Shown here in pieces: positions 42,283 through 61,052 of a DNA stretch of 64,000 nt. This stretch comes from Robiginitomaculum sp. (GTDB lineage: Bacteria; Pseudomonadota; Alphaproteobacteria; Caulobacterales; Maricaulaceae): contig NVXK01000002.1 in NCBI GenBank assembly GCA_002733905.1, positions 9,751-73,750 of the forward strand, in the 5' to 3' direction. A model generated the notes under the pieces. The model did not search any database and was not told the DNA's origin. It worked only from the letters and a program-made list of their open reading frames with translations. Position 1 is the stretch's first letter, and each line of letters begins with the position of its first letter. The translations under genes and the position numbers were made by a program.

Positions 42283-43212
42283 TTACTCATCTTCCCTATA
42301 CACTAAACGAAAACCAATATGTGATGTTGAAAAATCTTTTTCCTGACTTTGCTTGGCTGAAGGCCGGTAGCGTTTACAATAGAGTGGGGAACACAAAAAT
42401 GAGCCCCCTTTAACAATGCCAATATTGCTATTTTCATCCCCAACACTATCTTTTGTCCATTCCCATACATTGCCCGTCATATCGTATAAACCAAAAGAAT
42501 TTGAAGAAAAACAACCAGTAGGCGCTGTCCCTAGAAACCCATCTTCTTGACTATTTACAATTGGAAAGGCGCCTTGCCAAGTATTTGCTTTCACCTTACC
42601 TACGTCCAGTTTTTCTTCACCCCACGCATAGGTGGCGCCTTTAAGAACACCCCTCGCCGCATATTCCCATTCAATTTCTGTGGGCAAATCACCTCCTGCC
42701 CATGCGGCAAATGCCATTGCATCTGCGTACGCTATATGGACAACTGGGTGATCAGGCCGCCCCTTAATATCACTATTAGGGCCTTCTGGGTGCTTCCAGT
42801 CTGCCCCCTCTAAAAACTGCCACCAATTCATATTCCCACTAAGTTTGGGGGAAATAAATATAGCGGATCCAGATGTTAATTTATCAGCAGGTATATTGGG
42901 GTGGAGTTTACGGTCAGGCGTTTTTTCCGCTTGCGTAATATAAGCGGTTTCTTTGACAAATTGTGAAAAGCGAGCGTTTGTCACCTCGAGGGAATCAATA
43001 GAAAATGGTGCGACCTTTACCTGTCTTTTAGGGGCTTCTTCTTGGTATGCTACATCGCTCCCCATTGAGAATATCCCTCCCGACAAAGCTATTTTTTCTA
43101 GGCTAGGCCCACATTTTTGCAGAACGCTTTGTTCTTCCCCTTTCTGGCAGGACGCGATAAGTGGCGCACAAAAAGTAAAGGCAATAAGCAGATGGGATGT
43201 TTTTAATTTCAT
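42283..43212 (-). CDS. Exported formylglycine-generating enzyme (lipoprotein)
   Basis: A 309-residue SUMF1/FGE-family protein. The N terminus is a lipoprotein signal with Cys22 (LIASC), so it should act outside the cytoplasm. The FGE fold is marked by SMGSD, DSLEVTNARFSQFV, LPTEIEWEYAARG and MTGNVWEWTKD. Both active-site cysteines are present: Cys274 and Cys279 in GGSFLCSPLYCKRYR. Family members oxidise the cysteine of C-x-P-x-R in sulfatases to formylglycine with copper and oxygen. It is the last gene after two sulfatases, its likely clients. Confidence 0.9.
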   Translation of the reverse strand: MKLKTSHLLIAFTFCAPLIASCQKGEEQSVLQKCGPSLEKIALSGGIFSMGSDVAYQEEAPKRQVKVAPFSIDSLEVTNARFSQFVKETAYITQAEKTPDRKLHPNIPADKLTSGSAIFISPKLSGNMNWWQFLEGADWKHPEGPNSDIKGRPDHPVVHIAYADAMAFAAWAGGDLPTEIEWEYAARGVLKGATYAWGEEKLDVGKVKANTWQGAFPIVNSQEDGFLGTAPTGCFSSNSFGLYDMTGNVWEWTKDSVGDENSNIGIVKGGSFLCSPLYCKRYRPSAKQSQEKDFSTSHIGFRLVYREDE

Positions 43213-43309
43213 AATAGCATCTAGAAAAATGATTAAACTTTAACCTCTTACAAACTACACACCTTCAAGAAAGTGACAACATTTTTCCATCAGCCTCTTT
43301 GCGTAAAAT

Positions 43310-45631
43310 TTATTCCGCGTCGAGGTAAGTAAAGGTAAGCGGACCAAGAACGCCTTCGAATACAAAAGGCTTCCCCGTTTCTTCTACTACCAGCGTACCG
43401 ACTTCTCGGCCAATCCCTACCCCATTTGCGCCCCAATGAGAACGAACAGTCGCAGAAATATCAAGCGTTTTCTCGCTGCCGCTGACGGTACGAATAAACA
43501 TTTGCGCTGGGCCAGACGGTTTGTTCGAACTAGGCCTCATGCCAAACTCCAATACGTATTTCCCCGGCTTTAGCTTTTCGCCCAATTTCAAGCGCGCCAC
43601 TGGGTGTGGTTCGTTCAGATACAAGAAGGTCGGCTCCCCATCAAAAAGATAGACACCCCACCCATAGGGCCAGCCCCCTTGACTGATCACAGTACCCTGC
43701 GTGTTTGTATCGGTAATTATAACAGGTACAGATATGCTCCACGCACGGTTATTAATGGACGGGAAGGCATCGTCTAATAAAGGGCGTTTAGAAGGTAAGA
43801 ACACACGGCTTCCATTCGTAAACCGAGACGGACGATTGGCAGGGTTGGCGCGCTCTTGGATCCCACCATCTAATACGGCAGAGCCATTTTCAGCCAATTG
43901 ATCTGAAAATGCAGCAACCATTTTCGATAAACGATCAGGAAACTGTTTCGCTAAATTCTTAGATTGTGAATAATCCTGTTCAAGATTATATAGTTTCCAT
44001 ATTTTATCCTGATTTGCCTTTGGCGCCCACATTACATTGGGCGGGTCTAAAACGGCGAGCCAGCCATTTTGATAAATACCAGAATTCCCCAGCATTTCAT
44101 AATACTGGGTCGTATGCTGCTCTTTGGCATCCGCCTGATTAAAGCTATAGACAAGGCTACTGCCATCAATAGGTATTTGTTTGACGCCGTTGACAAAATC
44201 CGGAGCTTTGATGCCTGCGGCTTCGTAAAGAGTTGGCGCAATATCATTGACATGAGCATATTGGCTCCGCAGCCCGCCACCCTCTTTGATCTTATCAGGC
44301 CAACTTATCACGACGCCATTTCTCGACCCGCCCAAATGCGAAGCGTGCTGTTTGAACCATTGAAAAGGTGTGTTCATTGCCCATGCCCAAATGGCAGAAT
44401 AATTGCCAACATGATGCGGCCCGCCAATTTGGTCTATATTTTCGAGCATATATTCAACGGGTTCGTCAGGACGATTAAGAAGCCCGAGTAACGTGCCATA
44501 AAGCCCGCCCTCACCGCTGGCGCCATTGTCTCCATCTATAAAAATCACGAGCGTATTATCCCATTCACCCGTTTCTTTGATAGCCTGCACTACACGACCG
44601 AATTGATCATCAAAATAGGCACGTTGTGCGGCGTGAGCCTCCATAAAGCGCGCTGTAAGTTTCTTCTGGTCTGGGGTCAGTGATGACCAAGCAGGAAAGA
44701 GATCAGGCCGCACAGTAAGTACTGCGTCTTTAGGGATAATCCCTTGCGTTTTTTGACGTAAAAAAGTTTCTTCTCGCGTTTTATCCCAACCTTGATCAAA
44801 TTTACCGCTAAATTTCTCAAGCCATTCTTTTGGCGCTTGGTGCGGTTCGTGACCTGTACCCGGGGCCATATAAATCATAAACGGTTTATCAGGGGCTGCG
44901 GCGTGCTGGGCACTCATCCAATGAATGGTTTGGTCTGCCATATCTTTGTCAAAAAAATAGCCATTTTCTGCGCCGCTATTTTCAGGGTCAAATACTGTTG
45001 TGTTCTCTACTAAAACAGGGCTGATTTGATCGCTTGCACCGTGCATAAATCCGTAAAAATATTCAAACCCCAACCCCGTTGGCCAGCGATCAAAAGGCCC
45101 TGCATTGGTGAGTTCCCAAATTGGCGTAACATGGTTTTTACCAAACCACGCGGTGTTATAGCCATTGTCGGTAAGAACTTTACCGATCGTCGCCGCAGAT
45201 TTAGGCAAGACACTAGAATACCCCGGTGTACCTACGGCTAAATTGACGATACCCCCCATTTCAACGCGGTGATGGTTTCGCCCTGTCAATAAAGAGGCTC
45301 TGGTTGGTGAACACATGGCCGTGGTATGAAATCGGTTATACAGCAAGCCTTCTGCTGCCAAATTATCAAGATGAGGCGTGGGAATTGGGCCACCGAAAGT
45401 ACTATCAGCAGAAAACCCAATATCGTCCATCAACACGATCAATATATTAGGCGCATTCCGATCCTTAAGCACCAAATCTGGCACAGGAATAATTTTGTTT
45501 GAGGGGCGCGTTTGAGTGTTAAGGTTTTTTCCGTTCGCGATATCCGTATTGGTGTGTCCACCAAACTGATCACATGCGGATAGGGCGAGGAATGCCCCAA
45601 TCATGCCTATTGAAGCTATTCCTCGTTTCAT
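43310..45631 (-). CDS. Arylsulfatase (alkaline phosphatase superfamily)
   Basis: A 773-residue sulfatase with a lipoprotein signal (Cys20 in LALSAC). The active-site motif is Cys107 in MCSPTRASLLTGR, the C-x-P-x-R site to be converted to formylglycine. Metal ligands are visible in LIVLMDDIGFS near residue 65 and in IFIDGDNGASGEGG. It belongs to the long arylsulfatase type with a C-terminal beta-sandwich extension (from about residue 560). It follows the second sulfatase by nine bases and precedes the FGE gene. The sulfate ester substrate is unknown. Confidence 0.94.
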   Translation of the reverse strand: MKRGIASIGMIGAFLALSACDQFGGHTNTDIANGKNLNTQTRPSNKIIPVPDLVLKDRNAPNILIVLMDDIGFSADSTFGGPIPTPHLDNLAAEGLLYNRFHTTAMCSPTRASLLTGRNHHRVEMGGIVNLAVGTPGYSSVLPKSAATIGKVLTDNGYNTAWFGKNHVTPIWELTNAGPFDRWPTGLGFEYFYGFMHGASDQISPVLVENTTVFDPENSGAENGYFFDKDMADQTIHWMSAQHAAAPDKPFMIYMAPGTGHEPHQAPKEWLEKFSGKFDQGWDKTREETFLRQKTQGIIPKDAVLTVRPDLFPAWSSLTPDQKKLTARFMEAHAAQRAYFDDQFGRVVQAIKETGEWDNTLVIFIDGDNGASGEGGLYGTLLGLLNRPDEPVEYMLENIDQIGGPHHVGNYSAIWAWAMNTPFQWFKQHASHLGGSRNGVVISWPDKIKEGGGLRSQYAHVNDIAPTLYEAAGIKAPDFVNGVKQIPIDGSSLVYSFNQADAKEQHTTQYYEMLGNSGIYQNGWLAVLDPPNVMWAPKANQDKIWKLYNLEQDYSQSKNLAKQFPDRLSKMVAAFSDQLAENGSAVLDGGIQERANPANRPSRFTNGSRVFLPSKRPLLDDAFPSINNRAWSISVPVIITDTNTQGTVISQGGWPYGWGVYLFDGEPTFLYLNEPHPVARLKLGEKLKPGKYVLEFGMRPSSNKPSGPAQMFIRTVSGSEKTLDISATVRSHWGANGVGIGREVGTLVVEETGKPFVFEGVLGPLTFTYLDAE

Positions 45632-45640
45632 TTTAATTCC

Positions 45641-47074
45641 TTAATTCCGGTCTGCAAAATATTCAGAAGCTTTTTGAGAAAATGACTTTTCTGGGTATGG
45701 CAACATGCCCGCATTCCACTCTTCCCACTCGGCTTTCATTTTTTGAAACCTGTCAGGGTATTTTTCTTCGAGCCACGCTCTCTCACGGGCATCCTCGGCC
45801 AAGTTCAACAAATGTTCATGCGACCCAATCTTCAAATACTTCCAATCACCGTCCCGCATAGCCCGTTGTTCTTTTGTTTTATGCCGCCAAAACAGTTTGC
45901 GAGAAAAACTTGGAGCGCCCTCGACCAATTGAGCTGATAGGTCTTTGCCGTCAATACCATCTTTGGGAATAGCCCCACCAGCAATTTTGACAAAGGTGGG
46001 TAAAAAATCCATCGAAATCATCATTTGATCGGATATTTGCCCTGCTTCAATCTTTGCAGGCCATTGCATAAGGATCGGTACGCGAATTCCGCCTTCTAGA
46101 ACTTCGCCTTTCACCCCGATAAAGGGCCACGTATCAGAAAACCGCTCTCCGCCATTATCGGATGTGAAAACAATAATCGTGTTATCCAACATGCCTTTAC
46201 GCTCAAGAGCCGACAATATTTTACCAACATTGTCATCCATTGCACTCATCATGCGAGAGAAAGTTTCTATATTGCCACCATCTTTATGAAAGAAGCTTTT
46301 GAGACTATTGGATATTTCTTCGTCTTCCCGTCCCTCCCACGGCCAATGCGGCGCAGTGAAATGAAGGCTAAGGAAGAGAGGCTTATCCCCGATTTGTTCA
46401 ATTTGCTTCACAGCGTAATCGCCAAAAATATCGGTTAAATACCCAGCAATGTCTTGGCGTTCATTATCAACAAACAAATCGTTCGTGGCCACTTTACTAT
46501 TCATAATGGGGGCGTGTTTAAAATAATCAGCACCGCCTTGGGAAATCCCGACAAAATGGTCATACCCATATTGCAAAGGGCCGTTTTCAGGAATTTTACC
46601 CAAATGCCATTTCCCGATTAATGCCGTTTCATAGCCTTGTTCTTTAAGGACAGAGGCAATCGTTGGCTGTTCTTTAGGCAGGTGAGAATTTTCAGCCCAA
46701 GGCCCTAAGGGTTCATGTAAACCGACCTCAAATCGTTGCTGATATGCCCCTGACAAAAGGCCTGTTCGGGTCGGAGAGCAAATTGCTGCATTGGCATAAC
46801 CATCCGTGAGGCGAATACCGTTGGCAGCAAGGCTGTCAATATGAGGCGTATTCACGTGACGCGCCCCTGTGACACTAAGATCGGCATACCCCATATCATC
46901 AGCCATGATGAAAATAATATTGGGTTTTTGCGATGTGTGTTCTGCTGACGTGTTCTCAGAGCCAGCCTCTGACAACGGTTGGCACGCAGAAAGAGCAAAA
47001 CTAGTAAAGAGAGCGAAACTGGTCATTATTGGCAGTAATTTAAATCGCCCACTATTTTCTTTCCAAAGAATCAT
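45641..47074 (-). CDS. Sulfatase lipoprotein
   Basis: A 477-residue sulfatase. The signal ends with a lipobox at Cys31 (FALSAC). The catalytic cysteine is Cys99 in ICSPTRTGLLSG, and FIMADDMGYADLS supplies metal ligands. The stretch VFTSDNGGERFSDTWPF, then GVKGEVLEGGIRVP, is typical of the group that includes N-acetylgalactosamine- and aryl-sulfatases. It is much shorter than the arylsulfatase downstream, so the two probably attack different esters. A start at 47026 (MTSFALFTS) is an alternative to the 16-codon longer one. Confidence 0.94.
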   Translation of the reverse strand: MILWKENSGRFKLLPIMTSFALFTSFALSACQPLSEAGSENTSAEHTSQKPNIIFIMADDMGYADLSVTGARHVNTPHIDSLAANGIRLTDGYANAAICSPTRTGLLSGAYQQRFEVGLHEPLGPWAENSHLPKEQPTIASVLKEQGYETALIGKWHLGKIPENGPLQYGYDHFVGISQGGADYFKHAPIMNSKVATNDLFVDNERQDIAGYLTDIFGDYAVKQIEQIGDKPLFLSLHFTAPHWPWEGREDEEISNSLKSFFHKDGGNIETFSRMMSAMDDNVGKILSALERKGMLDNTIIVFTSDNGGERFSDTWPFIGVKGEVLEGGIRVPILMQWPAKIEAGQISDQMMISMDFLPTFVKIAGGAIPKDGIDGKDLSAQLVEGAPSFSRKLFWRHKTKEQRAMRDGDWKYLKIGSHEHLLNLAEDARERAWLEEKYPDRFQKMKAEWEEWNAGMLPYPEKSFSQKASEYFADRN

Positions 47075-47093
47075 TTTCTCTCCTTATTCACAT

Positions 47094-47129
47094 CTAAAAA
47101 AAGAGGGCCGGTCACAAGGACCGCCCCTC
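47094..47129 (-). terminator. Rho-independent terminator after the TonB receptor
   Basis: On the minus strand, gaggggcggtc (47129-47119) pairs with gaccggccctc (47113-47103) around a five-base loop cttgt. There is one mismatch in an 11-bp GC-rich stem, and seven T residues follow directly. It lies between the receptor gene stop and the sulfatase start, so it would stop or attenuate transcripts entering the sulfatases from the receptor promoter. Confidence 0.85.
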
Positions 47130-47154
47130 ATCAATTTAAAGATATCTGATTCTA

Positions 47155-49596
47155 TCAAAATTTAGAACCAAACCGCATTCCATAAGTCATATCAGCACCA
47201 ACCGTCACATAGGCAACGCCCAAAAGAGGATTTTGCGTGGAACGGACACGGTTTTTATTCTCTAGGTTACGAGCATAGAGGCCAAAATACCAATCGCCTT
47301 CTAGCGGTTCGAAGGTTAAATCGATGTTCGTAGTGGTATATCCGTCGATATTTTCGTGCTCAAGGTTATTAAATCCACCAACCTGATCGCTTACATATGT
47401 AGTATCCGCGCCCAGTACGATTTGCATGCTGTTTTCTAATGAGAACGTATGTTCGATACCGGCCTTGATTGTCCACTCAGGAGAAAAAATAGATTTATTT
47501 CCTGAACAATCAAACAACAGATCAGGACTACCGCTAGAGGTCGTACCGACAATTGTCGATGGACAATTAATATTATCGCGAGGCGTTGTTGAGCTAAAAA
47601 ACAACTCATCATAAGACGCATCAAGATATTGAACCGTACCATCAACAATAGTGTTGTCCCCCACCAACCAAGTCACATCAACTTCGATGCCCCGATTGGT
47701 CGCTTTACCGACATTACGAGTGGTATTTTGCAAAACACCATTATCGCTCAAATTGAAATAAGAGATCTGTTGATCTTTATAATCCCACCAAAACGCCTCG
47801 GCGTTCAATCGTAATGTACCATCAAGCAAGGTGTTTTTGATACCCAAAGTATAGGCATTGATGAATTCAGGATCGTAAGAATTACCCGTTGGCTCTAAAC
47901 CACCAGCACGATAACCGTGGCTATAATTAGCAAACATCATGGAATTTTCAGAAATATCTTTTTCCAAAGTCGCCCGATACGTAGGCTCATTATAACTAAT
48001 CGTTTCATGAACAGTGCTCTGGGCGTGTAAAATTTGCCCAATACCATTATTAAGCGGGATTAGAAAACCCGGAGGGATCGCGATTCGGGTCGAAGACCAG
48101 CCATTATCCTCTAAAAAGGCATAAGCTTCTTCAGGTGTATCCAAAGTTGGGAAATGCGGTAAATTTCCAGGAACAGCACAACCATGCGCGAAACTTCCAG
48201 GAGGTGTTACAAAGCTTGGACCGAGCCCACCACAGAAGGTGATGAAATTATCAATGCTACCGTCCATTGTCTTTTTGTCTTCGGTATAACGCGCACCAAC
48301 AATAGCACGAGTGCTCTCATTGATATTAAAAGTCGCTTCACCAAAAACGGCCCACGAAGAATTCTCTACAGTATACTCCTGCATCGGCAGAACGAACTCT
48401 TGGTTAAAGGTATTATTACCAGAAATATCTTCATCAGAATAATAAGCACCAATAATATAATCAAATAATTCAGAACCATGCCCTGCATAGTTAACCTCGA
48501 TAGATTTTTGAGCAGACTCGTCTTGCCACCAACCAGAGTTAAAGCCAGGTTGACCAAATCGTGAATCCTGTGAGGTTTCACGATAGCCCGGTAAGATTGT
48601 TAAATCTCCACTACCAAGTTCAAATTTAATTTCAGCATTTAGCCCCCATAATTCGCCGCTTTGATACCATTCGTCTTGAATGTCATTCAAAAAACCAAAG
48701 CCTGGCCCCGCCAAAATAGTTTGCCTAAAAGCACGGCTTTCAGCGCTACGAGGCCCAGAATTCAAAGCAATACCACTCTCTACAAGCTCAAACGAGCCTA
48801 ACCCTAAACGCTGGTAAGAGCCAACAGGTGTTGCGCCTGCGCCTATTCCGCCAATATCCGTATAGTCACCGGCAAGGCGAATACTAACGCTATCATTTAT
48901 TTCGGTCAGGAATTGCGCGCGGAAACTTTTGCGATCATCATCACTCGTGCCATCGGTATTATAGCCGTCATGCTTAACTTTACTCGCGGCAACCCGAAAT
49001 GCGCTATTTTCACCCACAGGCACATTAGCAAAAGCGCTAAAGTTTTGAGAGCTATAATTACCAAAATCAGCCGCAAACCCTGCTTCACGAACGCCAATTT
49101 CAGGCTTATTTGGAACAATATTAATCACGCCGCCCGTAGCATTCTTGCCATAGAGTGTACCTTGCGGTCCTTTCAGGACCTCGATACGGTTTATATCGTA
49201 AAACGCACCAATCGACGTCGCCGAACCACGTGCCAAAGCAACGCCGTCATAATTCAAAATAATGGCTGGATCGAGATAATTGGTGGCCCCTCGATTACCA
49301 ATGCCGCGCATATAAACTTGGCCATTAATCCCACCACCACTTATGATCGTCAAAGCAGGCACAGCATCCGTCAAACCTGCGGCACTATTAATCCCGTTTT
49401 TCAACAAATCGGCACCTGTTAAAGCATCGATGGCCAAACTTGTTTCTTGCAAGCCCTGCGATTTTTTCTGTGCGGTCACAACGATTTCGTCTAGGACACG
49501 ATTTGTTTGAGCTAAGGCAGAACCTGTCGCCATAACAAAAAATATGGTGGCCATTGAAGCGCCAGTGAGTAACCGGCTATTTCTTAAAATTGACAT
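47155..49596 (-). CDS. TonB-dependent outer-membrane receptor
   Basis: An 813-residue receptor with a signal peptide (ATIFFVMATGSALAQ) and a short region with VLDEIVVTAQKKSQGLQ, the TonB-box type start seen in many FecA-like receptors. The plug domain has VYMRGIGNRGATNYLDP and VLKGPQGTLYGKNATGGVIN. The remaining 600 or so residues form the beta barrel, ending in a C-terminal Phe (MRFGSKF). It would import a ligand through the outer membrane, here probably a sulfated or desulfated compound handled by the following sulfatases. No N-terminal signalling extension is present. Confidence 0.95.
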   Translation of the reverse strand: MSILRNSRLLTGASMATIFFVMATGSALAQTNRVLDEIVVTAQKKSQGLQETSLAIDALTGADLLKNGINSAAGLTDAVPALTIISGGGINGQVYMRGIGNRGATNYLDPAIILNYDGVALARGSATSIGAFYDINRIEVLKGPQGTLYGKNATGGVINIVPNKPEIGVREAGFAADFGNYSSQNFSAFANVPVGENSAFRVAASKVKHDGYNTDGTSDDDRKSFRAQFLTEINDSVSIRLAGDYTDIGGIGAGATPVGSYQRLGLGSFELVESGIALNSGPRSAESRAFRQTILAGPGFGFLNDIQDEWYQSGELWGLNAEIKFELGSGDLTILPGYRETSQDSRFGQPGFNSGWWQDESAQKSIEVNYAGHGSELFDYIIGAYYSDEDISGNNTFNQEFVLPMQEYTVENSSWAVFGEATFNINESTRAIVGARYTEDKKTMDGSIDNFITFCGGLGPSFVTPPGSFAHGCAVPGNLPHFPTLDTPEEAYAFLEDNGWSSTRIAIPPGFLIPLNNGIGQILHAQSTVHETISYNEPTYRATLEKDISENSMMFANYSHGYRAGGLEPTGNSYDPEFINAYTLGIKNTLLDGTLRLNAEAFWWDYKDQQISYFNLSDNGVLQNTTRNVGKATNRGIEVDVTWLVGDNTIVDGTVQYLDASYDELFFSSTTPRDNINCPSTIVGTTSSGSPDLLFDCSGNKSIFSPEWTIKAGIEHTFSLENSMQIVLGADTTYVSDQVGGFNNLEHENIDGYTTTNIDLTFEPLEGDWYFGLYARNLENKNRVRSTQNPLLGVAYVTVGADMTYGMRFGSKF

Positions 49597-49874: not shown

Positions 49875-51035
49875 TTAATCCGTATGCCCTCCTAAAGTTT
49901 CGGCAAACCAGTCCGCAATGTAAGAGCGCCCATAGGACATATTATCAGCCCCAACATGTTCGACACCACCCTCGCGACTGGTGAATATTTTTAGCTCTGG
50001 ATTGGTAGAGTTCGTCATTTGCTCAAAAGCTTGATAGGCGTATTTAACAGAAATTTGACGGTCGCTTTCGCCATGGGTTATAAGAAACGGCATTCCAATT
50101 TTATGCATATGACCATTCATATTCATGCCTTCGGTTTTTTTAAAAAAATCCTCTTTGCCTGTGGCCCCAAACACCCAATATACATGTTTCCAATAATGCG
50201 GGACAGGGTTTTCACCTTCATTTTTAAGGCGTCCAATTTGTACTTCGTGCCAATTATGGTTCGCGCCCCAGACCGCCCCAGACGCGAAGCGTGGCTCATA
50301 GGCTGCGGCGCGAGCAACAAAATGCCCTCCCAAAGAAATGCCAGTAATGCCAATACGTACATCGTCAACATCATCGCGTGATGCCAAATATTCATAACAC
50401 GGCGTGGCCCATTCTTCGGTGAACGGCGTAGCGGGTAAGTCATGAACACGTAAGGCCTCACCAGTTCCGGGTTGATCAATACAAAGCGTTGAAATGCCTC
50501 GTTTTGCCAGAGCTTGCGGCAACCACGTCCAGTATAATAATTCTTTACAACTATCCAAACCGTTGGTGAACAATACACAAGGGCCCTCCCCCTCTATGCC
50601 TTCGCCTTTGGTAAAGAGAGCCGGAATGGCTTTGCCTTTGTACGGAATATCAATGCGTTCACAATTTTCTTTGCCGTATTTCACATATTCTTTGAAGGCT
50701 TTTTGCGCCTTAGCAGAGGTTTCCCCTCGCCCCGGATGCCCGTGCCCCTGCATGCGCTCGGCCGTAATAAAATAAAGGGAAGCACGGCGGAGTTTATCGG
50801 ACGCAGACAATTTGCGGCCACGGGCCAAGTCTTCTTCAGCCAATTCAGCTAAGGTTTCGGCCTTGGCAGCCCATTGTTTCATAAATTCAGGCGTACCTGC
50901 ATCGGCACCTGCATCGGCGGCACGCTTAATTGGTTCACACATGTCGACAATTTCGCCGAGTTCGGCTCCACTCGCAACCGCAATGGCTACGGAGAGGTTC
51001 CAAATATAATTGGGGAAGAATTCATATAATGCCAT
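49875..51035 (-). CDS. Alpha/beta hydrolase, C-C hydrolase-like
   Basis: A 386-residue protein of the dienelactone/FrsA-like type that includes 2,6-dihydroxypseudooxynicotine hydrolase. A helical N-terminal cap (1 to about 125) precedes the hydrolase domain. The nucleophile is Ser234 in GITGISLGGHFVARAA, an oxyanion segment is CVLFTNGLDSCKE, and a C-terminal GGVEHVGADN supplies the likely catalytic His. It is followed in the genome by an extradiol dioxygenase gene upstream on the same strand, suggesting that it hydrolyses a ring-cleavage or side-chain C-C bond. The substrate is unknown. Confidence 0.85.
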   Translation of the reverse strand: MALYEFFPNYIWNLSVAIAVASGAELGEIVDMCEPIKRAADAGADAGTPEFMKQWAAKAETLAELAEEDLARGRKLSASDKLRRASLYFITAERMQGHGHPGRGETSAKAQKAFKEYVKYGKENCERIDIPYKGKAIPALFTKGEGIEGEGPCVLFTNGLDSCKELLYWTWLPQALAKRGISTLCIDQPGTGEALRVHDLPATPFTEEWATPCYEYLASRDDVDDVRIGITGISLGGHFVARAAAYEPRFASGAVWGANHNWHEVQIGRLKNEGENPVPHYWKHVYWVFGATGKEDFFKKTEGMNMNGHMHKIGMPFLITHGESDRQISVKYAYQAFEQMTNSTNPELKIFTSREGGVEHVGADNMSYGRSYIADWFAETLGGHTD

Positions 51036-51037
51036 GA

Positions 51038-51937
51038 TTATACCTTTGCGGATTTAAAGAGAGCGGGATCTGCGTGTAATGCTGGCATGGTTTTCGGCCC
51101 CCCGACGCCAGTGCTCCACTGATCCATTACCAATTGAGACGGTTTATAGGTTGTCGGCTGCCAATTTTCATCAACTTGTTCAAGTTCAGATGTATATTCA
51201 ACCACATTACCATTTGGCGATTGGAAATAACTAAAGGTATTATTACCAGCAGTATGACGCCCCGGCCCCCATAAGACATCTGTATCGTTTTTTTTGAGCC
51301 GGTAAATCCCTCTGAACATATCATCAATGGTCGGCATGTCATAGGCGACATGGTCCAAACAAGGCGGCCCCGGCAAGACGGCTAAACGATGATGCCATTT
51401 ATTGCACCGCAAGAAACACATGAAATCGCCCAGCCAATCAGATATTTTAAACCCTAGAACATCGACAAAATATTTCACCAAATCATGATGGTTCGGAGAA
51501 TGCAGTACGACGTGACTAATACGTTCTGGTACGGCGTCCCAACGTTCTAATATTTCTATTTCTTTAGTCTCGACATCGGTCGATATTTCAAACGGCAAAC
51601 CATCAGGGATAAAAAACCTAAACCCGTATCCCCCCCCTAAAGTTTCGAGGTTTTTGGGTGCAAAAATAATTTTACTCCCGAATTTCTTCACCCGCTCAAA
51701 TAACGCGTCAACATCTTGGCGCGTGTCGGCCTTGAGCGCCACAATATCAATACTGTTCTCATCTGATTGACGGAGCCGAACTTGATATAATTCTGCGGAC
51801 CCTTTTGCTGCAAAATAAACAAGGTCATTTTCTTCTTTTACCTCGTCTAGCTTCCAAACGTCTTGGTAAAACTTTTGTTCCGACGACAAATCCTTTACGG
51901 CATATCCTACATAACGAATATCTGAAATTACCCCCAT
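51038..51937 (-). CDS. Extradiol dioxygenase (VOC, type I)
   Basis: A 299-residue two-module VOC protein that should open a catechol-type ring next to the hydroxyls. By analogy with BphC, the iron ligands are His142 (SHVVLHS), His196 (LDHVAYDM) and Glu247 (VVEYTSEL). The second-sphere residues are also present: His182 or His183, His228 and Tyr237. The ATG at 51937 follows ggagagac, whereas the longer frame upstream has no domain content. It precedes the hydrolase gene by two bases, a typical dioxygenase-hydrolase pair. Confidence 0.9.
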   Translation of the reverse strand: MGVISDIRYVGYAVKDLSSEQKFYQDVWKLDEVKEENDLVYFAAKGSAELYQVRLRQSDENSIDIVALKADTRQDVDALFERVKKFGSKIIFAPKNLETLGGGYGFRFFIPDGLPFEISTDVETKEIEILERWDAVPERISHVVLHSPNHHDLVKYFVDVLGFKISDWLGDFMCFLRCNKWHHRLAVLPGPPCLDHVAYDMPTIDDMFRGIYRLKKNDTDVLWGPGRHTAGNNTFSYFQSPNGNVVEYTSELEQVDENWQPTTYKPSQLVMDQWSTGVGGPKTMPALHADPALFKSAKV

Positions 51938-52209
51938 GTCTCTCTCCATGATCAATTGTGTAAGAAAAATACACCAACGAAATTTAGCGCCAACACGTTG
52001 GTTTTTAACATTAGGTAGCAAAACCATATTCTCAAAACCTATTATATTCATACTTCAGTATCCACAAAGTCCATAGGTTGCAGCACGAACTATGAAAACC
52101 GTGAATAGCCGAACATCCAAAGAAACGGTTTTGAAAACACGTAAATTTCTAGAATACTACGGCAGAATACAAACCCAACGATCTGTCACCCTTCACCAAA
52201 TGAGAAACA

Positions 52210-52638
52210 ATGCTTGATTTAGAAACAGCCCTGACCCTAGCCAAAGAAACCCTCGCTGAGGGTCGTCGCCAAAAATTCGCACCGATGACCATTACCGTAT
52301 TGGATACTGGCGGTCACACGATCGTCGTACTCCGTGATGATGGCGGTGCCATATCACGGTGCGAAATCGCCACAGCAAAAGCCGCAGGGTGTTTGGGAAT
52401 GGGGTTTGGTGGTCGCGAGTTAGAGCGCCGCGCGAATATGATGCCAACATTTTTCAACTCTCTTACCGAGATATTTCCCAAAGGCATGATTGCCTTGCCA
52501 GGCGGTGTTTTATTACGCGATGCGGACGGTAAATTACTTGGGGCCGCTGGCGTCAGCGGTGACACCTCTGACAATGACGAAATTGCTTTATTGGTTGGGG
52601 TTAAGGCGGCTGGATTAGTAGCGCAAACAGGGGCGTAA
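52210..52638 (+). CDS. GlcG/HbpS family protein
   Basis: A 142-residue protein of the GlcG/HbpS (DUF336) family. Seen patterns are TLAKETLAEGRR, MTITVLDTGGHTIVVLRDDG, TAKAAGCLGMG and the C-terminal GAAGVSGDTSDNDEIAL. Family members bind small ligands or haem, or act as accessory subunits in catabolic clusters; a clear enzymatic role is lacking. It starts the plus-strand unit divergent from the dioxygenase and is separated from the next gene by one base. Confidence 0.88.
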   Translation: MLDLETALTLAKETLAEGRRQKFAPMTITVLDTGGHTIVVLRDDGGAISRCEIATAKAAGCLGMGFGGRELERRANMMPTFFNSLTEIFPKGMIALPGGVLLRDADGKLLGAAGVSGDTSDNDEIALLVGVKAAGLVAQTGA

Positions 52639-52639
52639 T

Positions 52640-53887
52640 ATGGGCAGAACCCTTTATACCAATATTCAAATTTTTGACGGAAGTGGTGCAGACCTCTACC
52701 CTGGTGAAGTCCTCGTCGAAGGCAATAAAATAACGGCTGTTAATCAAGGAACTGACGAAAAACTATCGACCGAAAATGCGTTTATTATTGATGGTAAGGG
52801 CGCGACCCTCATGCCTGGTATGGTCGAAGCTCATGCACATCTTACGTGGCCAACCAATGTTGAACGCACGATTAATGCGATGAAATTACCGATCGAAGAG
52901 CATGTACTCGTTACGGCACAAAATGCACGCATTACTTTGGATTATGGCTTCACCTCTGCATATTCGGCTGGATCGGTCGGGGAAAAGATTGAACCACATT
53001 TGCGGGATATGATTAATGCAGGACACATTCCTGGCCCACGCTTGCGTGCATCAGCCTTGGAAAAAGGGATGGAAGATGTGATGGGGGTTCCCGAAGGATA
53101 TGACCCGACCCATGACCGCAGCATAGAAGGCCTACGACAATATATTCGCGATATGAAAAAACTAGGCTGTGACACCGTTAAAATCATGCTGTCGAGTGAT
53201 GAAGGCTTTCAACTTGGTGGCTCTGAACGACTATTGTATACGCAAGAAGAAATCACTGCCATTGGCGAGACAGCACGCGAAGAAAATATTTGGCTAGCGT
53301 GTCATTCTCAATCCACGGAATCGGTTAAGATGGCCTGCAGGGCTGGCTTTCGTAATTTATTTCATTGTATTCATATTGACGAAGAAGGACTTGATTTGAT
53401 GGAGGCCCGCAAGGATGATCTTTTCATGTCTCCTGCCCCTGGACTTTTGTATGCTCGCATTCATGAAGCCCAAGACTTTGGCATTGGCCCCAAAGAAGCC
53501 CGTAAAATGGGCGCCTATCTTGGTCTTGAATCCAATCAAAAAAATATACCAAAAATGCGCAAGCGCGGCATTCGTGTCTTACCCGGAGGTGATTATGGGT
53601 TTCCGTATAACCCGATTGGACGTAATGCCCGCGACCTTGATATATTTGTTAAAATGTTTGGCTTCACGACACATGAAGCTTTGGTCGCAGCGACGAAGCA
53701 CGGCGGTGAGCTAGTTGACTGGCCAGTTGGCATGATTAAAGCAAACATGTTAGCCGATATTTTATTGATTGACGGCGACCCAACCAAAGACATTACGGTT
53801 TTACAAGACCTGTCTAAAATTTTGTCGGTTATGAAAGATGGTAAGTTTCACCGCGCCCCGCCGCGCCGGTATGAGGTCTTCGCGTAA
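52640..53887 (+). CDS. Metal-dependent amidohydrolase
   Basis: A 415-residue amidohydrolase with the N-terminal beta-sandwich and a TIM barrel. Metal ligands are His65 and His67 in VEAHAHLTW, a likely carboxylated lysine in CDTVKIMLSS, histidines in LACHSQST and LFHCIHID, and the aspartate in PGGDYGFPYN. Members hydrolyse amide or ring C-N bonds (imidazolonepropionase/prolidase-like group). Within an aromatic cluster it may process a lactam or amide intermediate; that is inference. Its end is preceded by the alternative start of the following GST frame. Confidence 0.9.
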   Translation: MGRTLYTNIQIFDGSGADLYPGEVLVEGNKITAVNQGTDEKLSTENAFIIDGKGATLMPGMVEAHAHLTWPTNVERTINAMKLPIEEHVLVTAQNARITLDYGFTSAYSAGSVGEKIEPHLRDMINAGHIPGPRLRASALEKGMEDVMGVPEGYDPTHDRSIEGLRQYIRDMKKLGCDTVKIMLSSDEGFQLGGSERLLYTQEEITAIGETAREENIWLACHSQSTESVKMACRAGFRNLFHCIHIDEEGLDLMEARKDDLFMSPAPGLLYARIHEAQDFGIGPKEARKMGAYLGLESNQKNIPKMRKRGIRVLPGGDYGFPYNPIGRNARDLDIFVKMFGFTTHEALVAATKHGGELVDWPVGMIKANMLADILLIDGDPTKDITVLQDLSKILSVMKDGKFHRAPPRRYEVFA

Positions 53888-53918
53888 TCTATATATATCT
53901 TCACAGGAATACGGTTAT

Positions 53919-54704
53919 ATGATTGAATTTTATGACAATGACATGTCCACGTGCGCCCAGAAAGTGCGCCTCGTTTTGGCGGCCAAAGGGCTAAAGTATC
54001 AGCGTCATTATTTAGATATCCGCGCTGGCGAGACCCAGACACCAGAATACCTAAAGCTAAACCCAAATGGTGTTGTGCCAACGATTGTTGACAATGGCGA
54101 AGTTATCATCGAATCCGCTGTAATTATAGCCTACCTTGATGATGCCTACCCTACTCCGTCCCTCAGCCCTGATAACGCCATAGCCCGTGCCGATATGTTG
54201 CGATGGATTATTCGTCCAGACGCGGGCCTGCATCAAGCGTGTGGCGAAACCAGTTTTGCCTTGGCGTTTCGTCATCAAATATCATGCCTACCTGAAGCCA
54301 CGCAGCAAAAATTATTTTCAAAAATGCCTAGCGAAAAACGCCGAAACGAAATTCATGCTATCGTCGAACATGGCTTGTACGCGCCCGGCATCGGGCTAGC
54401 GATACGCACTTATTATAAAGCCATTTACGATATGCAAATACAGTTAAGTAATACAAAATGGATTGCAGATAGTAAGTGGACTTTAGCTGATGCGACCTTA
54501 TTGCCATATGTGCTTCGCCTAGATCATCTTGGACTATCATGGTTTTGGGACGATAAACCGCTTGTTGCCAACTGGTATCAAGAGGCAATATCTCGCCCTG
54601 AATTTTCCGTCATCACAGACTATATGAACGAAGATTATTTGTCCTTAATGGCGGCGGTGACACAGGCCGAACATGCGCGAGTGAAGCAAATTTTAGGAGA
54701 ATAA
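53919..54704 (+). CDS. Glutathione S-transferase, LigF/zeta-like
   Basis: A 261-residue GST. The N-terminal thioredoxin-like domain has FYDNDMSTCAQKVRLVLAAK, with Ser and Cys at the glutathione-activating position, and the cis-Pro segment NPNGVVPTIVDNG and ESAVIIAYLDD. The C-terminal helical domain follows. The start is placed at ATG 53919 with aggaat upstream; an in-frame start at 53838 overlaps the amidohydrolase and adds no GST residues. GSTs of this type cleave beta-aryl ethers or isomerise maleyl intermediates; either would fit an aromatic pathway. Confidence 0.88.
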   Translation: MIEFYDNDMSTCAQKVRLVLAAKGLKYQRHYLDIRAGETQTPEYLKLNPNGVVPTIVDNGEVIIESAVIIAYLDDAYPTPSLSPDNAIARADMLRWIIRPDAGLHQACGETSFALAFRHQISCLPEATQQKLFSKMPSEKRRNEIHAIVEHGLYAPGIGLAIRTYYKAIYDMQIQLSNTKWIADSKWTLADATLLPYVLRLDHLGLSWFWDDKPLVANWYQEAISRPEFSVITDYMNEDYLSLMAAVTQAEHARVKQILGE

Positions 54705-54710
54705 ATCACG

Positions 54711-55355
54711 ATGAATTTCAGCCCCCAAGCCCAATCTATTTTCGATGCCTATGAAAACCGCTGGCAAGATGAGAGTGAAAAAATGCGGACGGGTGATCCC
54801 AAGGCTATAATGTTAAACCGTGATGACCTCTTACTGGCAATCGGCAAAGAAACTGGTGAATTTCTTGTCTCCTTATTGGTCGCGCATGGGGCAAAAAACA
54901 TCATTGAAGTTGGCACAAGTTATGGTTATTCGACCTTGTTTCTTGCCCATGCAGCCCAACAAACCGGAGGACGACTTACCACCCTTGAAATCGATGCCAA
55001 CAAACAAAACTATGCACGCGAAAAAATGCAGGCGGCAGGGTTAAGTGATGTCATTGATTGGCATTGCGGGGATGCAGTTTCTTGGCTGGAAACAGCGCAA
55101 GACCCGTTTGATTTTGTTCTTTTGGATGTATGGAAAGAATTATATATACCGTGCCTTAATGCCATAAAAGGCAAGATGAGTGAAGAAGGTATAATTGCAG
55201 CGGATAATATGATTTCTCCACCTATGCACCGCCAAGAAGCGCGAGAATATCGTAACATTATTTCTACTATGCCAGAATTCAATTCAGTATTATTACCCAT
55301 AGGGTCTGGCATAGAATTAAGCTGTAAATGGAGCCAAGAGAATACCAAACTCTAG
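54711..55355 (+). CDS. SAM-dependent O-methyltransferase
   Basis: A 214-residue class I methyltransferase of the small catechol/caffeoyl-CoA-type. Motif I is IIEVGTSYGYSTLFLA, an acidic GRLTTLEIDANK binds the ribose, and FDFVLLDVWKELY provides the metal-binding aspartate region. It follows the GST by six bases. Its role in a degradative cluster is not obvious: it could detoxify a catechol by O-methylation, or move a methyl group in another way. Confidence 0.88.
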   Translation: MNFSPQAQSIFDAYENRWQDESEKMRTGDPKAIMLNRDDLLLAIGKETGEFLVSLLVAHGAKNIIEVGTSYGYSTLFLAHAAQQTGGRLTTLEIDANKQNYAREKMQAAGLSDVIDWHCGDAVSWLETAQDPFDFVLLDVWKELYIPCLNAIKGKMSEEGIIAADNMISPPMHRQEAREYRNIISTMPEFNSVLLPIGSGIELSCKWSQENTKL

Positions 55356-55387
55356 ACTTTAAAAGGTTTCTCAAATCAATGGAACCA

Positions 55388-56171
55388 TCAACTACCATCT
55401 GTAATTGATGTACCACCATCGACCACAAGGCAGTGCCCTGTGATAAAACTGGCACGATCAGAGGCCAGAAAAAGAGCGGCATCAGCAATTTCATTTGGCT
55501 CACCTACGCGGCGTAATGGTGTCATTTGCATGCGACGTGCGCTCTTAACAGGGTCGGATAAAATCGCCCCTTCCCAACCCGTAGCAATCAATCCAGGTGC
55601 AACAGAATTTACGCGCACCCCTTTTGGCCCAAATTTTACCGCCATGTCTTTTGCTAACTGTACAAGCGCCGCCTTGGTTAGAGAATATACACCAATATTA
55701 CCATTACCGCGCAAGGCGGAAAGGCTGGCCGTCATCACAATACTACCCTGACCGCGTTCAGCCATTTTAGGCGCAAAACTTTCAGATAAAATTCGGGAAT
55801 GGTGTAAATTTAAGTTAAACACATTTGTGATTTCAGCTTCATAGCCGTCATCACCTGAACGTTTTTGGCCTGTCATACCCGCATTACAAAATAAAGCGTC
55901 AACAGGCCTAAATTTCTTCCAAGTTTCAGCCGCCATATCATGAACCGCGTCTGCGTCCATTAAATTTGCAGGGTAGATACTCGCACGACCACCGGCCGCA
56001 ACGACCTGCTTCATTTTGTCTTGGCAATCTTTTTCGTTCTCGGAATTGATGATGACATGAGCGCCCGCTAACGCCAAAGCATCAACAATCGCAGCTCCTA
56101 TTCCTTTGGTACCGCCTGTGACTAGAGCTGTTTTGTTGGTAAAATCAAATGGCGCTATAAGGCGTGCTCAT
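55388..56171 (-). CDS. SDR oxidoreductase with apparent frameshift at start
   Basis: The frame from 56077 back to 55388 encodes an SDR with the catalytic YSLTKAAL, NAG (LFCNAGMT) and the NSVAPGLIATG loop. The Rossmann start TALVTGGTKGIGAA lies upstream of the TTG at 56077 in the same frame, but that frame has no ATG, GTG or TTG before its TGA. An ATG at 56171, overlapping the dioxygenase end, would join it if one T of the TT at 56160-56159 were removed, giving a natural start of STPIAPFDFTNKT. So this is a frameshift or an unusual start codon. Confidence 0.75.
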
Positions 56172-57207
56172 CTTCTTCTGTGATTTTACTCAGATCACCT
56201 GTTGGCTTTCGTGAAATACGGAAGGGCTCAAAAGATTTTTGGTCAAGGTCAAATTCCATATCCCACGGAATGTCATCTCCTCTGAAAATAGGAGGCGTAT
56301 TATGTGACCATAGCAGGGATCCAAATTTAAAGTCCCACGCGCGCGGCACCCAATTATCATCCACATAATCCGTATCGGCGTGGTATTCCGCTTCGCCACC
56401 ACATGGCATATCGCAATAATAATAAATCGCCGAAGAAATACGGTGACGAGAAATACCGCCAGATGAATTGTTCGACGTATTCGTCCAGCCTCTTTTTTCC
56501 ATAATATTGGCACCGAGCATAACCTCGTCAATATCATCAAGGCCAAAGGCAATGTGCATAAAACCGAAACGGCCGGGGGCAACAGGTAATTGATCATTCA
56601 CCCAAAAAATGGAATGGTGCTCATGCGTGCCATCAGGACGCGCAAATATACCAACACCTTTGGAATGATCCGTATAGCGAAAATCAAGGTATTTTTGGTA
56701 AAACTCAAATGACGCAACATAATCTCCAGAGAAAAACACCACATGATTAATGGTCTTAGGGATAGCTTTGTGACGCCATGTGCGGTGCAGGTTTAGCCGC
56801 TTAATATTACCGGGTGCATTAACGGCATCTGGCTGTGAAAATACGACTTTTTTATCCCAAACCCTCAGCCCAATCCATTGCCCATCCGGGGCCTGACATA
56901 ATACAGACCCATCATCTTGCCGAATCACATCAAAATCAGCCTCTAGCCGCGAAGTATAATCATCAAGAGAATCCTGCGTATCCACCCCCCAATAGGTTAG
57001 CTTCACCCCTTCGCCAGGAAAGGATTCAGCGGGTAAACGGTCGTCGCCGAGCTTGCGTACAATCAGCTTTGATCCAGTTGCGACATCAAATACACTTTCT
57101 GTTTCATCCGATGAAACCGAGTTAAGGCCAAAATCGATCCAAAATTGTGTATTTTTCTCTAAATCTTTTACAGCAAATACAACTGCTTCAATCCCTAAAA
57201 TGCTCAT
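56155..57207 (-). CDS. Extradiol dioxygenase (VOC), second type
   Basis: A 350-residue two-module VOC protein distinct from the one at 51038. Iron ligands by analogy with extradiol enzymes are His155 (NHVVFFS), His218 (MHIAFGL) and Glu274 (AEYHADTD). Second-sphere residues appear as His197/His198 (EHHSIF), His255 (SRHRIS) and Tyr263 to Tyr265 (IYYYCD). This is the complete set for ring cleavage, so it should be active. A C-terminal extension of about 65 residues (from DNWVPRAW) is unusual. It shares an operon with the SDR. Confidence 0.88.
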   Translation of the reverse strand: MSILGIEAVVFAVKDLEKNTQFWIDFGLNSVSSDETESVFDVATGSKLIVRKLGDDRLPAESFPGEGVKLTYWGVDTQDSLDDYTSRLEADFDVIRQDDGSVLCQAPDGQWIGLRVWDKKVVFSQPDAVNAPGNIKRLNLHRTWRHKAIPKTINHVVFFSGDYVASFEFYQKYLDFRYTDHSKGVGIFARPDGTHEHHSIFWVNDQLPVAPGRFGFMHIAFGLDDIDEVMLGANIMEKRGWTNTSNNSSGGISRHRISSAIYYYCDMPCGGEAEYHADTDYVDDNWVPRAWDFKFGSLLWSHNTPPIFRGDDIPWDMEFDLDQKSFEPFRISRKPTGDLSKITEEDEHAL

Positions 57208-57348
57208 AATAATCCCTACTCATTTAGAAGGCTATATTGGCACGCTGCACATATTGATAAAAATGTTTTTTATAGAGGCTTAGCATTCATCAGACAAATA
57301 GGACGATTTCAAACAAAGACAGACAATAAAGAGAATAGCCTCAGTCTT

Positions 57349-58272
57349 TTACCATTCCACTTTGCCCCATGTTTTCTCACTATGCTCTATCAATTTTTTG
57401 ACGACCCATTGTAAGGCAGCATTTCGCGCGTTGAATGAGTGCCACTGAATGGCAAGCCGAAGGCCTTCCATTTCAATAGGCATTTCGTGTATTGTGATAG
57501 GCAAATATTGTATCATTTTTTCCGCCATTTTACGGTGGACCGTTGCAACCCTATCTGTACCAACTGTCAAAATCGGAGATAAGGAAAAAATTGGCGAAAT
57601 AACCTCAACCCGCCTCACTATATCGCGATGTTTAAAAAACCATTCTTCGGCGGCTGGAATGCGCGCTTTCCCAAACCGTGTAACGACATGACCAAGTTCT
57701 AGAAATTTCTCCAAAGTAAGTGGTTCTTGTAAATGTTTGTTTTTTTCCCAACCGACGACAACAAAATCATCTTTGACCAAAAGTTCCATCGGATGATCTT
57801 CGGAACATAACATATCAATACAAATCAACAAATCTGCGATACCGCGTTCAAGGTCAGCCACAACATTACCGCCCATACTCAATATTTCAAACTTCATATG
57901 AGGCGCTTCTACTTGAATGGCTGAAATCGCATCAGCCAAAACAATTTGCGTAATGTAATCTGACGCCATGATAGAGATCGTTGCTTTGTTTTCTGCTGGG
58001 TCAAACTCCGGCACTTTAACGATGGTTTGGCGAATTTGCTCTAACACATCTCGTACTGGTTCTACCAACTCTTCTCCACGCGGCGTCATCATCATTTGCC
58101 GTCCCTTTAAGACCAGCAAATCATCTTCAAAATACTCTCGCAACCGCCCCAGCGCACTACTCGTTGCCGATTGGCTGAGACAAATTCTTTCTGCGGCCTG
58201 AGACACACTTCTTTCGGTTAACAAAGCGTCTAAAGCAACGAGTAAATTTAGGTCAAGACGGTCAAATCGCAT
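57349..58272 (-). CDS. LysR-type regulator, NodD-like
   Basis: A 307-residue LysR family protein. The winged HTH occupies residues 5-65 (DLNLLVALDALLTERSVSQA, then AERICLSQSATSSALGRL). The C-terminal effector domain starts near 90 and contains ATISIMASDYITQIVLAD. The N-terminal RFDRLDLNLLVALDALL is typical of the NodD/LinR/PcpR branch, which responds to aromatic compounds. It lies upstream of the second dioxygenase on the same strand and is the only obvious regulator of the catabolic island, so it probably senses the substrate or an intermediate. Confidence 0.92.
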   Translation of the reverse strand: MRFDRLDLNLLVALDALLTERSVSQAAERICLSQSATSSALGRLREYFEDDLLVLKGRQMMMTPRGEELVEPVRDVLEQIRQTIVKVPEFDPAENKATISIMASDYITQIVLADAISAIQVEAPHMKFEILSMGGNVVADLERGIADLLICIDMLCSEDHPMELLVKDDFVVVGWEKNKHLQEPLTLEKFLELGHVVTRFGKARIPAAEEWFFKHRDIVRRVEVISPIFSLSPILTVGTDRVATVHRKMAEKMIQYLPITIHEMPIEMEGLRLAIQWHSFNARNAALQWVVKKLIEHSEKTWGKVEW

Positions 58273-59160
58273 GCCATATCCTTTATCATATTTCTAATTC
58301 GTCCAGAGACGACGCTAGATAAGTTTCTAACAAGGGAACTTTATTGACATAATTAGCGACCATTTTTTGAAATCTTCCAACAAGATTCAAAACAATACAC
58401 ACAAAGATAACATCATAACACAATGAATCTATTATCAAAAAAATATATTTTTTTTCAAATATACTCAATACCGTTTATATAATACTAAATGAATCTTCCC
58501 TTGATAAATTCAGTTAGTATGTTTGATCGCTCAGAGTTTTATGAATAAAACGAATACTCGGCCTTAAAACTATGAACGGCTCCCCAAATGAGAATGCTAC
58601 GATTTAGGACAGCGGAAAACCAGCAATTCACGACCATAGTAGACACAAGCAACATACCCTCTTTTATTTAAAAAATCAATTCCCCAGAGAAGGCAGCATT
58701 CATTTCATAGAGATGTGTTGCAAAATAACAACTCATTATACTCATGACTTTTCAAAATCAATTTAGCCTTGTTCTAGCCTTAGCAAGACAAGTAAAAAAG
58801 CGCAGTGATCACTAAAAAACAAACGTATTGAAATCAGGGTAGCAAAAAACTTTCTGTGTTTTCTTTTCATGAAAACTGTGAAAATGAAAGGAGGCAAACA
58901 GCCCAATGAAAAACGCTCTACATTACCTGTTCAACGAAGGCGAAATTCAAATTTCGACCCAAACTACCTACACCTAGCCCCCACACCTAGCCAAGCAAAC
59001 GTACTCATGAGGTCAATTTTAAAACTATGTAGCGCCCCCCATGTTCACCCAAAACAGGCCCGTTTAAATTTGACCTGTACAAAATAATATAGAGCGCCCA
59101 TTTGCATCACGGCACTCATACTTTACCGTTTATGCTATATTGAGGAAAAACAAGGCCTCA
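58273..59160. other. Long intergenic region in the catabolic island
   Basis: Nearly 900 bp between the LysR gene and the flavin hydroxylase gene without a convincing coding region. The part just upstream of lysR (58273-58480) is very AT-rich with several T or A runs, as expected of a promoter. A perfect Shine-Dalgarno-like aaaggagg at 58887-58894 precedes a 23-codon frame at 58906-58977. The repeat acacctagcc occurs twice near 58968-58990. No RNA gene was recognised. Confidence 0.5.
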
Positions 59161-60282: not shown

Positions 60283-60519
60283 GAGTTTACCTTCTTAATG
60301 TTATTTAGAAACTTAAGTTAAAAGTTTGAATCGATTTACAAAAATTCATTTTATCAAAGTTTGGTATCTACAAAACAGCGCAATAGCCCCGAGATAACTT
60401 TGCGTGCCTTTTTTAAACAATCATAATTCGCTATTGCCTCCGTGAACATTCACGATTGAAAGCCACCTGTGATAGTGGGTTTGGCGATTTTTTTGATCGT
60501 TTCGATTGACCTCAACCAA
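60283..60519. other. Spacer between cupin and hydroxylase genes
   Basis: This gap of about 240 bp is long for genes on one strand and may hold a separate promoter for the hydroxylase. A small palindrome gtgaacattcac is present near 60443, and a weak hairpin follows. No gene or clear terminator is seen. Confidence 0.35.
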
Positions 60520-61020: not shown

Positions 61021-61052
61021 TATAACGCTCCTTTGGCTATTTCTAACAACCC

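Follow-up and report, generated by a model that had tools for sequence, protein, structure and literature searches.

A predicted lipid-anchored formylglycine-generating enzyme beside two lipoprotein sulfatases in a Robiginitomaculum genome

We analysed a 64,000-nucleotide stretch of contig NVXK01000002.1 from Robiginitomaculum sp. (hereafter the window, whose numbering is used for all positions), in which four genes of interest occupy 42283-49596, all on the minus strand, and encode a TonB-dependent receptor, two sulfatases (A and B) and a formylglycine-generating enzyme (FGE). Judged from its sequence, the sole recognisable sulfatase-activating enzyme of this host should be exported and membrane-tethered, like most of the relatives that we examined. 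We consider it likely that the membrane-tethered FGE produces formylglycine in the periplasm, once Sec export has taken place. The genome's single FGE with a CxxxxC pair and both of the sulfatases that our searches found in it are encoded together, which supports this reading, and the presence of an exported FGE beside exported sulfatases points to maturation outside the cytoplasm. The original prediction had proposed maturation in the periplasm or outer membrane; that inference upholds its first element, a location outside the cytoplasm, and leaves the outer membrane or cell surface without support.

The enzyme, its sulfatases and their signals

The FGE gene (42283..43212) encodes a 309-aa predicted lipoprotein that matched PF03781 (E 1.7e-70, 238 bits) and whose best sequence matches in the PDB were human and bacterial FGEs (5e-65). 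An AlphaFold2 model built on 38 sequences (predicted local distance difference test score, pLDDT, 76.8) adopted the human FGE fold, and Foldseek placed human FGE 1y1j first among PDB chains (1.7e-25, TM-score 0.75). In agreement with the earlier claim that both active-site cysteines are retained, the stretch GGSFLCSPLYC (42376..42408) aligned with known FGEs and brought Cys274 and Cys279 onto the known pair, which in this family binds copper; both residues were kept in 80/80 public-genome relatives. By sequence, predicted fold and active-site cysteines the window protein is thus a true FGE, with catalysis predicted. An FGE-fold protein without activity was also considered, since GldK and PorK, structural parts of the type IX secretion system (T9SS), share both the FGE-type fold and a lipid anchor with the window protein, and since the same genome encodes a further protein (L002) that has a lipobox and lacks the cysteines. 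The window protein, in contrast, keeps both cysteines, matches true FGEs far better than PorK (5e-65 vs 2e-14) and gave a GldK match of 103.9 bits, far below the NCBIfam cut-off of 350, and we rejected this candidate: that it is an inactive lipoprotein of the GldK/PorK kind seems highly improbable.

All three proteins carry predicted lipoprotein signals, as originally proposed. In the FGE, residues 1-22 (43147..43212) comprise an n-region, a hydrophobic stretch and a lipobox ending in LIASC22, a signal that is kept in the family and from which our home-made rule predicts lipidation at Cys22; the signals of sulfatase A (ALSAC20, 45572..45631) and sulfatase B (ALSAC31, 46982..47074) were called by the same rule. 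The lipobox rule gave 76 false positives in 3580 shuffled N-terminal regions and none in 1369 internal segments, and a stricter version was positive for 69/6380 shuffles vs 55/63 FGE rows of the host's family (window included), which led us to reject a chance lipobox. The claim of a surface-localised enzyme fared worse, as we found no sequence sign of surface exposure and the lipobox is uninformative in this respect. The residues at +2 are Q in the FGE, D in sulfatase A and Q in sulfatase B (mostly Q, G, S or N in the lipoprotein FGEs of the family), and in sulfatase A Asp-Gln directly follows the lipid cysteine, an arrangement that under the E. coli sorting rule would favour the inner membrane.

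Sulfatase A (43310..45631, 773 aa, PF00884 2e-58) has as its nearest solved relative the P. aeruginosa arylsulfatase 1hdh (residues 60-583), beyond which it bears a C-terminal extension of about 190 aa (43310-43882) without a Pfam match at E 0.001. Sulfatase B (45641..47074, 477 aa, PF00884 2e-60) is closest to the exo-4S-kappa-carrageenan sulfatase 6prm. Both are Cys-type lipoproteins that combine PF00884 with the C-x-P-x-R signature of S1 formylglycine sulfatases, here CSPTR, with Cys107 (motif at 45299..45313) and Cys99 (46766..46780), respectively, as the expected formylglycine sites. Apart from these residues, each protein contains just one cysteine, the predicted lipid-bearing Cys20 in A and Cys31 in B. 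The substrate cysteine was likewise the sole cysteine of the mature domain in 53/69 sulfatases encoded beside exported FGEs, as against 0/31 beside leaderless ones, a difference to be read with kinship in mind. PMC7678975 reports that even cysteine numbers are favoured in exported proteins, against which the lone sulfatase cysteine would be a special case, removable by formylglycine formation.

The FGE itself has two further cysteines, Cys34 in the N-terminal arm (43111..43113) and Cys234 (42511..42513), proposed as disulfide partners because they co-occur in lipoprotein FGEs. Cys234 is present in 50/63 family FGE rows, and the mature form of 53/55 lipoprotein FGEs of the family contains either no cysteine beyond the active pair or 2 such residues; extra cysteines are located in the N-terminal arm and at 234 (43 rows) or at 47 and 66 (11 rows). 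Outside the family, the 34/234 pair, as the only extra cysteines, occurred in 10/15 lipobox rows among the 80 relatives and in 8/8 of the sample from the window's class; the 18 cyanobacterial FGEs with Sec signals pair an N-arm cysteine with position 71 instead, and the gammaproteobacterial lipobox rows followed no rule (1/2 with an even extra-cysteine count). In the AlphaFold2 model, pLDDT averages 76 over the 10-residue block with Cys34 and 73 over that with Cys234. The two alternative position pairs suggest clade-specific disulfides, and the use of different pairs by different clades fits bonds made in an oxidising compartment.

Export of the enzyme in relatives and the route of its sulfatases

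The family set, from the host's own Maricaulaceae, comprised 63 FGE rows including the window; two fragments of one G493 FGE were dropped. Rows that lacked the cysteine pair were also removed from the samples (3 from one of them, and L317). The automatic rule detected a lipobox in 55 of these 63, and 62 were labelled exported after reading, L191 being leaderless. The final labels for 80 public-genome relatives were 35 exported, 40 leaderless and 5 unclear (38 vs 42 at first hand reading). By reading, the cyanobacterial FGEs had Sec signals, the alpha- and gammaproteobacterial ones mostly lipoboxes (leaderless examples are L028, L032, L060, L070 and L078), and the sampled actinobacterial ones were leaderless. 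Close to their N-terminus, the latter often had a CC[AG]P motif; motifs of this type, possibly for copper or thiol handling, were seen in many leaderless FGEs (L018-L085; for instance L068, L071 and L080). Further samples yielded exported FGEs in 34/36 Bacteroidota, 29/31 Planctomycetota (13 of the 46 matches in this phylum lay outside the sample), 6/14 Gammaproteobacteria and 20/33 Alphaproteobacteria, the window's class. Over all samples, 188/260 FGEs were labelled exported, 62 leaderless and 10 unclear, although these rows were picked by similarity to the window FGE (E 1e-30 or 1e-40) and the shares are therefore not a census. The exported group consists of 174 automatic calls (112 lipobox, 56 Sec, 6 Tat-like) and 14 relabelled from none by reading (L051, L067, L171, L172, L186, L213, L215, L321, L323, L351, L369, L380, L394 and L396), some with an apparent uncleaved membrane anchor. 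Export of the FGE is common in several Gram-negative groups and not special to the window locus.

We then compared the export of each FGE with that of its neighbouring sulfatase in the 94 loci where a Cys-type sulfatase lay no more than 2 kb away and both proteins had decided labels; three sulfatase labels had been changed to Sec by reading (L044, L051, L372). Export matched in 89 of them: an exported FGE accompanied a Sec or lipoprotein sulfatase in 60 loci, and a leaderless FGE accompanied a leaderless (22) or Tat (7) sulfatase in 29. When labels were taken from the automatic rule only, over the first 176 FGEs, the sulfatases beside exported FGEs were Sec 44, Tat 4 and none 1, and those beside leaderless FGEs none 21, Tat 8 and Sec 5. 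The alphaproteobacterial leaderless FGEs L233, L235 and L237 adjoin sulfatases whose Tat signal is the classic DRRSLLIG, and genome G658 pairs a lipoprotein FGE with a Sec sulfatase and a leaderless FGE with a leaderless sulfatase; for its third FGE, also leaderless, no sulfatase was found in the vicinity. These pairings would fit a simple rule, by which a Sec substrate reaches the outside unfolded and has to be modified at that place, whereas a Tat substrate undergoes both modification and folding inside. We are mildly inclined to generalise that a deep and widespread bacterial FGE lineage works periplasmically, membrane-tethered or secreted, and that the place where a sulfatase matures goes with its export route, outside for Sec substrates and inside for leaderless or Tat ones.

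The same comparison bears on whether the FGE might act on nascent sulfatases in the cytoplasm and only then be exported, slowly, its anchor serving a later function. A folded protein cannot cross Sec, which means that an FGE already folded and active could not then be exported by this route; the extra cysteines, being paired, agree with an oxidising compartment; and leaderless FGEs, the ones expected inside, pair with leaderless or Tat sulfatases in 29/31 decided loci. Despite the cytosolic location given for prokaryotic FGE in PMC4505483, we regard this order of events as unlikely.

For periplasmic activation, the preferred reading, the following steps can be envisaged. Both sulfatases and the FGE would be exported unfolded by Sec and, judging by their lipoboxes, lipidated at the N-terminal cysteine; the FGE would fold in the periplasm, where a Cys34-Cys234 disulfide probably fastens its N-terminal arm to the core, as the co-occurrence of the two residues suggests, and would bind copper via Cys274 and Cys279, as is known for the family. 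It would then use O2 to oxidise the one free cysteine in each sulfatase, either ahead of sulfatase folding or in the course of it. The reductant could come from DsbD-type systems, for which three genes are present in the host genome.

Maturation enzymes in the genome and the case against periplasmic activation

A second cytoplasmic FGE, or an anaerobic sulfatase-maturating enzyme (anSME, including AtsB; these enzymes are cytoplasmic) elsewhere in the genome had been named as what would refute the proposal, and we found neither an additional FGE with the cysteine pair nor an anSME over the curated cut-off. In the host genome (3.48 Mb, 43 contigs, 96.9% complete), the PF00884 search returned the two window sulfatases alone, and the PF03781 search returned the window FGE and one other protein, L002, which was rejected as a second cytoplasmic FGE on account of its missing cysteine pair. 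L002 lies at 1474-2436 of G000:C3, where the ORFs alongside read as a sugar aminotransferase and an acyltransferase. The best anSME candidate of the host, L005, was dismissed as a distant radical S-adenosylmethionine (SAM) match (57.7 bits vs the TIGR03942 cut-off of 349), and no anSME exceeded that cut-off in any of 137 family genomes. At E 1e-30, FGE was found in 58 of these 137 genomes and a sulfatase in 65; both occurred in 55, a sulfatase alone in 10, FGE alone in 3 and neither in 69 (Fisher p 4.6e-24, kinship uncorrected).

The 10/65 genomes with a strong sulfatase match and no FGE (G402, G420, G432, G435, G450, G464, G487, G491, G494 and G517), which contain no anSME over the cut-off either, are the first of several observations that weigh against periplasmic activation by the FGE. 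Four of them (G402, G420, G450 and G494) are at least 99% complete; in the ten, sulfatases may mature by another route, or genes may have been overlooked. Weaker radical-SAM matches, at best 163 vs 349 bits, were present in 24/137 family genomes, the host included, and the fragmentation and incompleteness of the host assembly count in the same direction. The FGE-less genomes, the lack of an anSME over the cut-off and the weaker radical-SAM matches, together with the fact that E. coli can modify Cys-type sulfatases without a known FGE, would suit a cytoplasmic modification of the sulfatases by an unrecognised enzyme, the exported FGE serving other substrates or none. Such an enzyme would leave unexplained the position of the FGE start just 97 bp behind sulfatase A, the finding that a sulfatase is the commonest neighbour of exported FGEs (83/188 loci; 59/94 genes within 300 bp) and the strong FGE/sulfatase co-occurrence in the family, and we judge it improbable, if somewhat less so than action of the FGE in the cytoplasm before its export.

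The other points on this side concern the labels, the cysteines and the tree. Signals were called by the home-made rule and reading, not by SignalP, and this rule is less specific in its Sec part than in its lipobox part (601/3580 shuffles positive, 362/6380 in the stricter version). Five loci with an undecided Sec or Tat sulfatase signal (L176, L193, L195, L213, L214) were left out of the 94, five of which showed a mismatch, namely a leaderless FGE with a Sec sulfatase (L191, L231) or an exported FGE with a Tat-like or signal-less sulfatase (L339, L395, L394). No paired-cysteine rule was apparent in Planctomycetota (8/14 even) or Bacteroidota (12/18 even), and since exported proteins are often poor in cysteine, the lone sulfatase cysteine supports sulfatase export and not the place of modification. 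Finally, on a FastTree tree of 258 FGE rows (250 labelled), the export state changes 3 times, giving 2 independent pairs, and a wider sample assembled for more export changes still gave 3 and 2. The match between FGE and sulfatase export is thus not statistically independent, and amounts essentially to one deep split with consistency within clades.

Locus surroundings and wider meaning

The order of transcription is TonB-dependent receptor (49596-47155), sulfatase B (47074-45641), sulfatase A (45631-43310) and FGE (43212-42283). The two sulfatase genes are 9 bp apart, with a good ribosome-binding site (AAGGAG) for B, a fair one for A and no obvious one for the FGE. Between the receptor gene and sulfatase B lies a terminator-like hairpin with a T-run (47096..47129, -20 kcal/mol, z -3.78), which indicates that the receptor gene is probably a separate transcription unit, and the best reading of the locus is a working unit of sulfatase B, sulfatase A and FGE. 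The receptor (47155..49596, 813 aa, PF00593 and PF07715, ordinary Sec signal by the rule) had been put forward as the uptake partner; its gene does stand beside the sulfatases, but its membership in the unit is weak, given the hairpin and the finding of a similar receptor within 5 kb in just 2/188 exported-FGE loci, both in the family set, to which the window belongs. The TonB link is specific to the window locus. For these counts, 151/188 exported-FGE loci were at least 9 kb long, and as many loci are short, the numbers of neighbours are minimum values.

Among the 28 commonest neighbour clusters within 5 kb of exported FGEs, whose representatives were read (three were run against Pfam, and not all clusters are annotated), sulfatase alone recurs widely, and no copper chaperone was recognised by reading in these 28. 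A DSBA-like thioredoxin domain protein, possibly unrelated, was encoded near exported FGEs in 6/188 loci (L222 and five others), at a distance of no more than 300 bp in four of these. Upstream of the receptor gene, adjoining the sulfatase locus, the window carries a set of aromatic-degradation-type genes (49875-62039), encoding two glyoxalase/extradiol dioxygenase-type proteins, an alpha/beta hydrolase, a short-chain dehydrogenase/reductase (SDR), an FAD-binding monooxygenase-like protein and a fumarylacetoacetate hydrolase, which makes aromatic sulfates as plausible a substrate as sulfated glycans.

Among known systems, human FGE (SUMF1), resident in the endoplasmic reticulum (ER), shares the fold and the CxxxxC pair with the window FGE, and its oxidising compartment, exported sulfatases and structural disulfides resemble the setting proposed here; its signal, by contrast, is not a lipobox, and its disulfides (Cys346-Cys235 and Cys365-Cys218 in PMC4505483) differ from the bacterial pairs. 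The FGE of Streptomyces coelicolor has the same fold and active site, but actinobacterial FGE is cytosolic according to the same paper, and the sampled actinobacterial rows are leaderless, unlike the window FGE. The anSME/AtsB enzymes likewise make formylglycine in sulfatases (PMC3920027), although as radical SAM enzymes they differ from FGE. The review PMC3920027 also describes Cys-type sulfatases as typically cytosolic and Ser-type ones as periplasmic. Export signals on cyanobacterial sulfatases from Shark Bay mats (PMC9723792, in passages silent on where the FGE itself resides), export of most sulfatases in two Kiritimatiellales strains (PMC6388578) and sulfatase production in which the signal is deleted and the M. 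tuberculosis FGE supplied by co-expression (PMC8746622) have been described, and the open-licence literature searched, as far as its accessible text goes, yielded no report of an exported bacterial FGE.

If FGE export holds in many Bacteroidota, Planctomycetota, Cyanobacteria and Proteobacteria, which our samples suggest, the activation of environmental sulfatases would need a second look, as would its cost in copper and O2 and the laboratory production of such sulfatases. Two stretches of human FGE, CHRSYC and GFRC, resemble the leaderless bacterial type (a sequence reading, made with no tree), and if the periplasmic lineage is real, the animal ER arrangement would be a parallel, not a unique, solution, with these bacteria offering a genetically tractable counterpart to maturation in the ER.

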